Positions 41,229 through 55,288 of a stretch of 59,036 nucleotides of DNA are shown in pieces. This DNA comes from Gemmatimonadota bacterium (GTDB lineage Bacteria; Gemmatimonadota; Gemmatimonadetes; Gemmatimonadales; Gemmatimonadaceae), in NCBI GenBank assembly GCA_947461225.1, contig CANHJV010000003.1:1-59036 (forward strand). Reading direction: 5' to 3'. The translations under genes and the position numbers were made by a program. Numbering within the stretch: the stretch's first letter is position 1; each line of letters starts with the position of its first letter. A model generated the notes under the pieces. The model ran no database searches and was not told where the DNA came from. It worked only from the letters and a program-made list of their open reading frames with translations.

Positions 41229-42053
41229 ATGGCGATGCTCAGTTTTGAGAAGAAGTACCGTGTACGCGGCGGAACGCTGATCGGCGGAGATCTGTTCGAT
41301 TTCTGGTTCGGTCCGTTTTACGTAGGGTTTTTCGGCGTCTCGGCCATCTTCTTTATTGTCCTTGGCACGGTGCTTTGTGTCTGGGGCGCAGCCATGGGTC
41401 CGACGTGGAACCTCTGGCAAATCTCTATTGCACCGCCTGACCTGAAGTATGGTCTGGGCTTCGCTCCGCTCCGCGAAGGCGGACTCTGGCAGATCATCAC
41501 GATTTGTGCGATTGGTGCGTTCGGCAGCTGGGCGCTCCGACAGGCCGAGATCAGCCGGAAGCTGGGCATGGGCATGCACATCCCCTTTGCTTACGGCGCG
41601 GCCGTGCTCGCGTACGTGACCTTGGTGGTGATTCGGCCGGTGTTGCTCGGCGCCTGGGGACACGGCTTCCCGTACGGCATCTTCTCCCATCTCGATTGGG
41701 TGTCGAACGTCGGGTATCAGTACCTGCACTTCCACTACAATCCGGCGCACATGATCGCCGTGACGTTCTTCTTCACGAACTGCCTCGCCTTGGCGATGCA
41801 TGGGTCACTGATTCTGTCAGTGACGAATCCGAAGAAGGGCACGCCGGTTGGCACGAGCGAAACGGAAAACGTGTTCTTCCGCGATCTCCTGGGCTACTCG
41901 ATCGGCGCGATTGGTATTCATCGGCTTGGGATGTTTTTGGCCATGGGCGCGGCGATTTGGAGCGCGATCTGTATCGTGATCTCGGGCCCCTTCTGGTCGT
42001 CAGGGTGGCCGGAGTGGTGGGGCTGGTGGCTTAATCTTCCGATTTGGCGCTGA
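41229..42053 (+). CDS. pufL: Photosynthetic reaction centre subunit L
   Basis: [68 protein letters not shown]. Confidence 0.98.
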
Positions 42054-42067
42054 GGAGAATCGACCTG

Positions 42068-43237
42068 ATGCTTGAGTACCAGAATCTCTTCACGCGCGTC
42101 CAAGTCCGCACCGTCCCCGAGGCGGGCATCCCGATCGAGGATTCGCCGGGCGGACGCTTGGGCACCGGCACCTTCTCGTATCTCGCCGGTAAGCTCGGCG
42201 ATGCGCAGATCGGCCCGATCTATCTTGGAACCGCGGGCACGTTCTCCCTGCTCTTCGGATTCCTCGCCTTCGAGATCATCGGCCTCAACATGTGGGCCTC
42301 CGTGGGCTGGGATCCGGTCGAATTCATTCGACAGCTGCCGTGGCTGGCGCTCGAACCGCCGCCACCACAGTACGGGCTGCATCTTCCGCCACTGCAACAA
42401 GGTGGCTGGTATCTGATGGCCGGGTTCTTCCTCACGGTCAGCATTCTGCTCTGGTGGCTGCGCGTGTACCGTCGGGCCACGGCGTTGAACATGGGCACGC
42501 ATCTGCCCTGGGCATTCGGCTCGGCGATCTTCCTGTACTCCACGTTCTTCTTCCAGCCGCTGCTGGTGGGCAGCTGGAGTGAGATGGTGCCCTTCGGCAT
42601 CTTCCCGCACCTCGATTGGACGTCGGCCTTTTCGATTCGCTACGGGAACCTGTACTACAATCCGTTCCACGCGCTCTCGATCGTGTTCTTGTACGGCAGC
42701 GCGGTGCTGTTCGCCATGCACGGCGCGACGATTCTGGCCGTAGCCCGTCTCGGCGGTGAACGCGAGATCGAGCAGATCACCGATCGTGGTACGGCGGCCG
42801 AACGCTCCATGCTCTTCTGGCGCTGGACGATGGGTTTCAACGCGACGATGGAGTCGATCCATCGGTGGTCCTGGTGGTTCGCCGTGCTCACCACGTTTAC
42901 CGGCGGTATCGGTATCCTGCTCACGGGCACCGTGGTGGACAACTGGTATCTCTGGGGTGTCAAACACGGTTTGGTCTCGCCCTATCCGGCGCAGAACAAC
43001 CTCACGGCCGAACAGCAGGAACTGCTGCGTGGCCGGTATCAAGGAACCGCCCCGGACTCATTCCCCACGTACGTGGCGCCGCAACCTGCGATGATGCTCG
43101 ACTCGACGGCCCTGATGACGCCAGCAGATTCGCTGACGGCAGACTCGACCCGAGTCGACTCCCTCGCGACGCCGGCAGCAGCCGGTCCCGCTACCGCAAA
43201 GCCGACCGCCGCCCCTGCTGGAGGAAAGTCACCGTGA
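42068..43237 (+). CDS. pufM: Photosynthetic reaction centre subunit M with C-terminal low-complexity extension
   Basis: [85 protein letters not shown]. Confidence 0.98.
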
Positions 43238-52400: not shown

Positions 52401-53069
52401 TCATGCCACGACCGGTTGTGCGGCCGTAATCGTTTCAGCGGGGGCAGTGCCCCGCTCTCCCGTCCGCTCGATGCGAACGTTCTGCTCAGCGACCGCGGCG
52501 ATGGCGTTCACGAGCAACGCGCTGACCGCCTTGGGATCCAGCAACGCGCGGAGTACCGGTTCCGGATGCGTGAATCGAAACACCTGACAGTGCGGCCACA
52601 GCGCGATGTATGCGAGTCGATGCGCCTTCCCGAGGGTGAGCACCAGCTGACCGGTCCCGTCACTGAAGGTACCGATTCGTGCGCCATCGATAATCGAGAA
52701 CGGAATATTGATGGACATCGGGAACACCACACCGAGACGCATCACGATGCGCCGATTCGTGATGGCGTACCACGAGGTCCGAGCCGACGCTCTGGCGAGC
52801 ACTTCCGCGATCGCCAACACGATGAGCGTCAACGCCAGCCGGATGCCGAAGCCGACGGCGAACGCCCGACTCAGCACCGGCTCCACCGTCGCGATTCCCC
52901 ACCACGCCAGCATGGCCGTGAAATACATCGCCACCAACCGGCGATGGAAGACGTGCGTCGCGAGTGCGCGCGCATCGGGAGCCGCCTCCCACAGCACGTG
53001 CTCGCCGGCGGGAAGCGGATGGGGGACTCCCTTGATGTACTCGGCGTTCCCCACCTCGTTGCGGCTCAT
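52401..53069 (-). CDS. puhB: Photosynthetic complex assembly protein PuhB
   Basis: VPHPLPAGEHVLWEAAPDARALATHVFHRRLVAMYF; TNRRIVMRLGVVFPMSINIPFSII. Confidence 0.9.
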   Translation of the reverse strand: MSRNEVGNAEYIKGVPHPLPAGEHVLWEAAPDARALATHVFHRRLVAMYFTAMLAWWGIATVEPVLSRAFAVGFGIRLALTLIVLAIAEVLARASARTSWYAITNRRIVMRLGVVFPMSINIPFSIIDGARIGTFSDGTGQLVLTLGKAHRLAYIALWPHCQVFRFTHPEPVLRALLDPKAVSALLVNAIAAVAEQNVRIERTGERGTAPAETITAAQPVVA

Positions 53070-53608
53070 ATGATCGGCTCGCTCCGGTCGGCCGTCGCGT
53101 ACAGATGCCCACCGGCGAAGTACGCCATGATCTTGTCCTCTTCCAGCAACGTGATCTGGTCGTCGCGACGGATCGCTGGCACATTGGCGAACTGCGCCGC
53201 GGTGATCGACTTCACGAGCAGACGGTCATTGCCCCACAGCCCGAAATTCGGCCACTGCACGAAGCCGGCGGGCAGCATGATGCGTCGTTCCGTGCCCGAG
53301 AGCTGAACCTCGTAGTACCGAACCTGCGGTTCGGCGCGATCGACCCACAGTTCGATCACGGTTCCAGCGGTCACCTTGTCCACAGCTTCGACCGGCAACC
53401 CACGCGGATCGGGATCGCCCTTGGCGACGGAGAACGTGGGATCGAGACGCATCGGCACAATCTTCGGCGTGCCATGGAACGTGCGATCGGGCTCATCGGC
53501 ACGATCCGCCCACGCGGCCGGGCCAACCCCATCGATCATCGGGTTTCCGGTAGGAACCAGCGGCGACCCATTGAAGCCGTCAGCCGGCACCGCTTTGATG
53601 TCGGACAT
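53066..53608 (-). CDS. puhA: Reaction centre H subunit, cytoplasmic domain only (split PuhA, C-part)
   Basis: GNPMIDGVGPAAWADRADEPD...GLPVEAVDKVTAGTVIELWVDRAEPQVRYYEVQL...VTLLEEDKIMAYFAGGHLYA-like PuhA C-domain; TGATG overlap with the upstream ORF. Confidence 0.93.
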   Translation of the reverse strand: MSDIKAVPADGFNGSPLVPTGNPMIDGVGPAAWADRADEPDRTFHGTPKIVPMRLDPTFSVAKGDPDPRGLPVEAVDKVTAGTVIELWVDRAEPQVRYYEVQLSGTERRIMLPAGFVQWPNFGLWGNDRLLVKSITAAQFANVPAIRRDDQITLLEEDKIMAYFAGGHLYATADRSEPII

Positions 53609-53808
53609 CAGTGCGTCTCCTCGCCGCTGTGCGGCCGATGAATGAAGGTCTTCGGGCCGGCCGACTTGGGCCACCCATCACGCGGACCCTGCGGTGATTC
53701 GAGGGGATAGCCTTCCCGCTTGTCTTCGCGTCGAATGTAGATGATCAGCCCTGCGAAAAATATCCAGAACGCATACAGGGCGATCTGAGCTCCGTCGATG
53801 TACTGCAT
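53608..53808 (-). CDS. puhA: Reaction centre H subunit, transmembrane segment only (split PuhA, N-part, 66 aa)
   Basis: [66 protein letters not shown] matches the PuhA N-terminus. Confidence 0.92.
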
Positions 53809-53836: not shown

Positions 53837-55288
53837 TCAAGCGGGAATGTCGGCCAGTCCGAACGATCGGCTGGTTTGATCGCGCTCGGCTTGACCGGCG
53901 ACGCGACGGGCAACGAGAGGTCCTAGTGCCACCAGGGTGGCGAACAGCATCAAAATCTCGAGGTGATACACGGCAGAGTACGGGACCGACGGCACGTTCA
54001 AGCCCGGGCTGAGCGCGCCTTGCTGCACCAAATGCGAGAGCCAGTCCTTCATCACGCCGCTCAGCGCAAACGACAGCCCTTCCGCCGTCGCGAAGACCGC
54101 GCCCCACGCGCCGAGGGCAATCCCATGCTGCGAGGGATCGCGCAATTGCATGGCGAAGGACAACGTGCCAACACCGAAGAAGCCTTCCCCGAGGCCGATC
54201 AGCCCAACACCGAGGCGGAACATCCCCGCCGATTCCAGTGGACTGGCGAACACGATGCCGGCAAATCCGAGAATGCCGATCAGTGCCCCGAGTGCGGCGA
54301 GGCGAATCGGATCCTGCTGGCGGCGCAGCATCGACGCGGAGAGCCCAAACGCGATGACCGCGCCAACGGCCATGATGGCGGTGAGCATCGTGGTCTGCGA
54401 CACGGAAAGGCCGAGCACCTCCCCACCGTACGGTTCGAGCAGGACATCCTGCAGATTGAACGCGAAGAAACCGAGCCCCGACGCGACGAGCAGACGGACC
54501 GCCTGCCCTCCGCTTGAGAACGTGCGCCAGGCCTCGCGGAACATCGGACGGCGCTCACCCTTCGCATACTCGACCACACCGCGGACACGCGCTTCCTGCT
54601 TCCACAGGGAGATCATGTTCACCAGGATGGTGAAGACGGCGGTCCCCTGAATGACCTGAATGAGGCGCAGGGGTGTGAAGTCGCGTAACACCGACTCCAA
54701 GAAGAGCGCGCTGATCAGCGTCCCCATGAGCATCATCAGATACATCAGCGCGATCACGCGCGGCCGCTTGTCTTCGGACACGACATCCGTGGCCAACGCG
54801 AGCCCCGCCGTCTGTGTGGTGTGCGCGCCGGCACCCACGAGCAGGAAGGCGAGCGCCGTGCCGGCATGGCCGATCCACGATGGCCCGACTCGTGGGCCAT
54901 CAGAAAGCACGAGCAAGGCGAACGGCATGATCGACAGCCCCGCGAACTGCAGCATGGTCCCGCCCCAGAGGAACGGCACGCGCTTCCAGCCCAAGAGACT
55001 CTTGTGGGTGTCGGACTTGAAGCCGATCAACGCACGGAACGGGGCGGCCAGCAACGGGATGGCCAACATGATCGCGACCAGTGACGCCGGAACGCGCAGC
55101 TCGAGAATCATCACGCGATTCAACGTGCCGACGAACAGCGTCTGCACCATCCCCACGGACAGCTGAAACAGGGACAGGCGCAACAGTCGGCTTAACGGCA
55201 TGTCCGCGGTCGCGACATCCGCAAACGGCATGAACCGCGTACCGAGCGTCAGCCAGACGCGCACAGAAACCCCAGGCTTCGGTGCCAT
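53837..55288 (-). CDS. lhaA: LH1 assembly protein LhaA / PucC-family (BCD) transporter
   Basis: [66 protein letters not shown]. Confidence 0.93.

Follow-up and report, generated by a model that had tools for sequence, protein, structure and literature searches.

A reaction-centre H subunit encoded by puhA1 and puhA2 in a Gemmatimonadota genome, and the distribution of the split gene in the phylum

The two genes and their structural relatives

In the window, i.e. the whole stretch of 59,036 nucleotides that was analysed (contig CANHJV010000003.1 of the Gemmatimonadota draft genome GCA_947461225.1), the H subunit of the type-II reaction centre was encoded by two adjacent genes, and it is very probably assembled from two chains (probability about 0.95). 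This subunit is usually regarded as a single chain, which anchors and caps the bacterial reaction centre. The first gene, puhA1 (RC-Ht, 53608..53808, minus strand), encoded the transmembrane half of 66 aa, with the ATG at 53808..53806 and the stop TGA at 53610..53608, and the second, puhA2 (RC-Hc, 53066..53608, minus strand), encoded the cytoplasmic half of 180 aa, between the ATG at 53608..53606 and the stop TGA at 53068..53066. On direct reading, the interval 53066-53808 given in the original prediction was exact.

Both halves were identified by Pfam and PDB chain matches. Ht matched Pfam PRCH (PF03967) only at model positions 5-65 (E 1.2e-20), and Hc took the remaining part at model positions 82-133 (E 3.8e-19) and also matched PRC-barrel. 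Since the PRCH model was divided in this way, the gene break falls inside the linker, and the alignment to PuhA of Thermochromatium tepidum (PDB 3wmm_H) agreed, with residues 7-73 corresponding to Ht and residues 87-258 to Hc. Ht was a separate ORF with only the transmembrane helix and proximal segment of the H chain, and Hc was a separate ORF with the cytoplasmic domain beginning in the linker, which bore out the parts and the place of the break that had been assigned to the 66-aa and 180-aa ORFs beforehand. In proteobacterial PuhA, such as the T. tepidum chain, homologous domains stood in the same order, but were joined by an intact linker into a single chain of about 250-260 aa, whereas the H subunit of the window was in two chains. 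From KREGYP to GVGP, the fused chains that were measured had 72-77 residues, and the H subunit of the window had about 66 over its two chains together.

The two-chain H subunit is already known from close relatives. Ht was matched over its full length by the chains 7o0u_H1 (E 2.2e-36) and 9h22_H (E 2.9e-35), and Hc by 9h22_K (E 3.8e-102) and 7o0u_H2 (E 1.8e-99). The RC-dLH complex of Gemmatimonas phototrophica (PDB 7o0u, 7o0v, 7o0w and 7o0x) had the identical two-chain layout and break, with H1 (Ht) of 67 aa and H2 (RC-Hc) of 181 aa, both within 1 aa of the lengths in the window. Its Hc was 79% identical to that of the window, so this other species differed only by sequence divergence. The two chains that the original prediction gave for this species are thus real and deposited. 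In the complex of another species, Gemmatimonas groenlandica (PDB 9h19 and 9h22), Ht had 66 aa and Hc 180 aa, with 81% identity to Hc of the window; chain 9h22_H was labelled 'Ht' and chain 9h22_K 'reaction centre Hc sub unit'. Locus L131, whose Ht and Hc N-terminal sequences equalled those of G. groenlandica, had the TGATG junction, as in the window. The H subunit of G. groenlandica has been described as divided into a transmembrane Ht and a cytoplasmic Hc modelled as separate chains, and the presence of puhA1 and puhA2 in place of one puhA as a Gemmatimonadota-specific modification (PMC12817894, mSystems 2025). The stable two-polypeptide H subunit that had been proposed therefore exists in close relatives (7o0u, 9h22), and is very probable in the window organism.

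Distribution of the split gene

A PRCH profile match was obtained in 45 of the 400 Gemmatimonadota genomes sampled, window genome included, and on inspection of the loci the H gene was split in all 45 (46 loci, 15 genera, 3 families). Loci with diverged motifs were settled by profile HMMs, except L015, the contig of which begins inside Hc. Five genomes were apparently unsplit, each with a single full-length PRCH match, but an in-frame stop and then a start were found on reading. The junction was TGATG in 34 of the 46 loci, ATGA in 5, an in-frame stop followed by one codon and then ATG in 5, a 14-nt gap in 1 and a 19-nt gap in 1, so that the overlap was of 1 nt or 4 nt, and TAA, TAG and TGA were all used in the in-frame class. 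Whether all phototrophic Gemmatimonadota share the junction of the window had been raised in the original prediction; the split was shared by all PRCH-bearing genomes, and the TGATG form was not. This phylum-wide distribution, the turnover of the junction and the tails of family f5 (below) are the new part, the split itself being published.

Genes for type-II reaction-centre L/M were over the cut-off in 46 of the 400 genomes. Genome G245 had full pufL and pufM without a PRCH match, and since it was 88% complete it was counted as missing data, probably an incomplete bin. In genome G390 (L127, L128, L244 and L249), a split puhA set and a pufLM set each occurred twice, on separate contigs; either a second photosynthesis cluster or mixing of the bin would account for this. 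In addition, a 73-kb contig titled 'Candidatus Kuenenia stuttgartiensis' (L012, CALQGY020000004.1) carried a Gemmatimonas-type split puhA; it is apparently contig G220:C4, placed in the genus of the window, and the record title is probably wrong.

The pattern search of named genomes gave 80 loci, and the 62 related loci outside the Gemmatimonadota-like group (L020-L081) were all single ORFs. PRCH was over the cut-off in 31 of 399, 78 of 197 and 36 of 300 genomes of the Pseudomonadota samples, every one with a single uninterrupted match; two genomes occurred in two samples, giving a total of 143. Thus no split H gene was found outside Gemmatimonadota in the 62 related loci and 143 Pseudomonadota genomes, and no Hc relative was among the 128 pattern matches of viral contigs. 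For Myxococcota phototrophs a single pufH(puhA) has been named, and a split was not discussed (PMC10576062). Split puhA serves as a marker of Gemmatimonadota photosynthesis clusters in metagenomes, and a two-chain H throughout the phylum would show that anchor and cap need not be covalently joined.

Junction, selection and expression

At the TGATG junction (53606..53610, minus strand, direct reading), which was as the original prediction had described it, the A at 53608 was both the last base of the Ht TGA and the first base of the Hc ATG, and the Hc frame was -1 relative to Ht. A Shine-Dalgarno-like GAGGAG for Hc (53617..53622, minus strand) was read within the coding sequence of Ht, 8 nt upstream of the Hc ATG, and the junction region reads CGGCGAGGAGACGCACTGATG. 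In most of the 46 loci, a purine-rich site resembling GAGGAG was present upstream of Hc.

As the draft genome that holds the window consists of 264 contigs, one intact gene might have been broken by a sequencing or assembly error, and as the frame is interrupted compared with proteobacterial PuhA, the locus might be a decaying puhA pseudogene. The arrangement recurred, however, in 46 loci, one-contig genomes (G039, G074 and G130) among them, and two chains were also present in the solved structures. Both Ht and Hc were full-length domains, Hc possessed a start codon and a Shine-Dalgarno-like site of its own, and no second Hc-like gene besides the locus at 53066..53608 was found in an Hc search of the draft genome. 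Pairwise dN/dS (Nei-Gojobori) between the window and seven relatives of the same and the sister genus was 0.00-0.30 for Ht, a range based on few changes, and 0.04-0.23 for Hc, with several dS values near saturation; both Ht and Hc are under purifying selection. This selection, together with the turnover of stops and junctions, rules out error and decay for practical purposes, each being left with a negligible probability, and the earlier view of two intact domains instead of a decayed gene is upheld.

Fusion of the halves, at least in part, by a programmed frameshift or by stop readthrough would suit the adjacent frames of Ht and Hc at most junctions, and readthrough would suit the genera g18, g31 and g35, where the two were in frame with one stop between. 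But the junction type and the stop varied, from overlaps to gaps of 14-19 nt and among TAA, TAG and TGA, therefore no single slippery or readthrough signal can be common to the loci. A good internal start was also retained in most loci, and two chains were listed in the deposited structures, with 9h19_K beginning immediately after the initiator Met. Such fusion is very improbable, if slightly less so than error or decay.

For the two-chain subunit the following route is proposed. Ht and Hc would probably be translated from a single puh message, and the overlap together with the internal Shine-Dalgarno-like site points to translational coupling, in which ribosomes finishing Ht at the TGA would probably reinitiate at the overlapping ATG, aided by GAGGAG; this would hold Ht and Hc near 1:1. 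Ht would then provide the short-tailed helix that anchors the subunit in the membrane, and Hc the cytoplasmic PRC-barrel domain that covers L and M on their quinone side, and both would associate non-covalently on the L/M core, as in the cryo-EM structures of relatives and here by homology. The natural junction variants could be used as material for assembly studies.

Origin of the split and neighbouring genes

Gemmatimonadota were on one side of a branch both in the PuhA tree (65 rows, 230 columns, support 63/72), from which L050 and some near-duplicates were left out, and in the PufL+PufM tree (58 rows, 585 columns, support 74/94). The trees are thus weakly consistent with a single origin of the split, the support being moderate or weak. 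In f2 and the majority of f1 loci, Ht ended in the His codon CAC directly before the stop (CAC TGATG or CAC TAG GAC ATG), and this terminal His pattern was absent in f5, g22 and g28; the position of the His would fit one ancestral stop position.

The split may instead have arisen several times or come by separate transfers from split donors, given that junction types differed among genera, that monophyly of the phylum was only moderately supported for PuhA and PufLM, and that it was broken in a quick tree, where L050, a fused Sulfitobacter PuhA on a very long branch, fell among the f5 split sequences. This placement was probably caused by long-branch attraction, and it was discounted because the split group was unbroken once L050 and near-duplicates were removed. 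Two findings speak against several origins: every sampled H gene was split inside the phylum and fused outside it, and the His position before the stop was common to most f1 loci and f2 whatever the start arrangement; several origins are accordingly rather unlikely.

We infer that the sampled families diverged after the split had arisen, or that it arrived with a split donor. With a single origin, the common ancestor of the sampled phototrophic Gemmatimonadota probably already had the split, and the junction would have drifted later. A small number of independent events, or passage of the cluster from one family to another, may also account for the pattern. The published placement is 'relatively recent', after transfer and before the divergence of Gemmatimonas and Pseudogemmatithrix; since the split was in all 45 genomes of 3 families, our data suggest an earlier age. 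The Ht tails in f5 were about 25-60 residues longer than those in Gemmatimonas and were Ala/Pro-rich, and the motif [KR]HPAL was present in 9 of 9 f5 loci (L113, L116, L120, L125, L126, L140, L142, L145 and L149) and in none of the remaining Ht or fused PuhA sequences that were examined. It seems somewhat more probable than the contrary that the split is an old phylum-wide trait (at least 3 families, two orders) which was selectively kept while the junction turned over, and that the f5 Ht tail became longer by about 25-60 residues and acquired [KR]HPAL, which could make a new contact within the complex.

Downstream of Hc, a puhB-like gene (52401..53069, minus strand) was assigned from its place after puhA, with a weak sub-threshold bPH_2 match. 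Its start overlapped the Hc stop (ATGA), reading ATATGAGC, so the puh operon continues and is tightly packed. The gene directly upstream of puhA1 was lhaA of the PUCC family (53837..55288, minus strand; PF03209, E 1.1e-129), and a Rubrerythrin-family ORF upstream of lhaA was read as acsF. The gene order around puh agreed with that of a typical Gemmatimonadota photosynthesis cluster, where acsF lies between bch and lhaA-puh (PMC7844134). A pufLM match was also present within the window (41316-42973, plus strand). The open frame of PufM in the window was about 400 aa and extended beyond the usual end with an Ala/Pro/Thr-rich tail, and an extended frame was also seen in most Gemmatimonadota matches.
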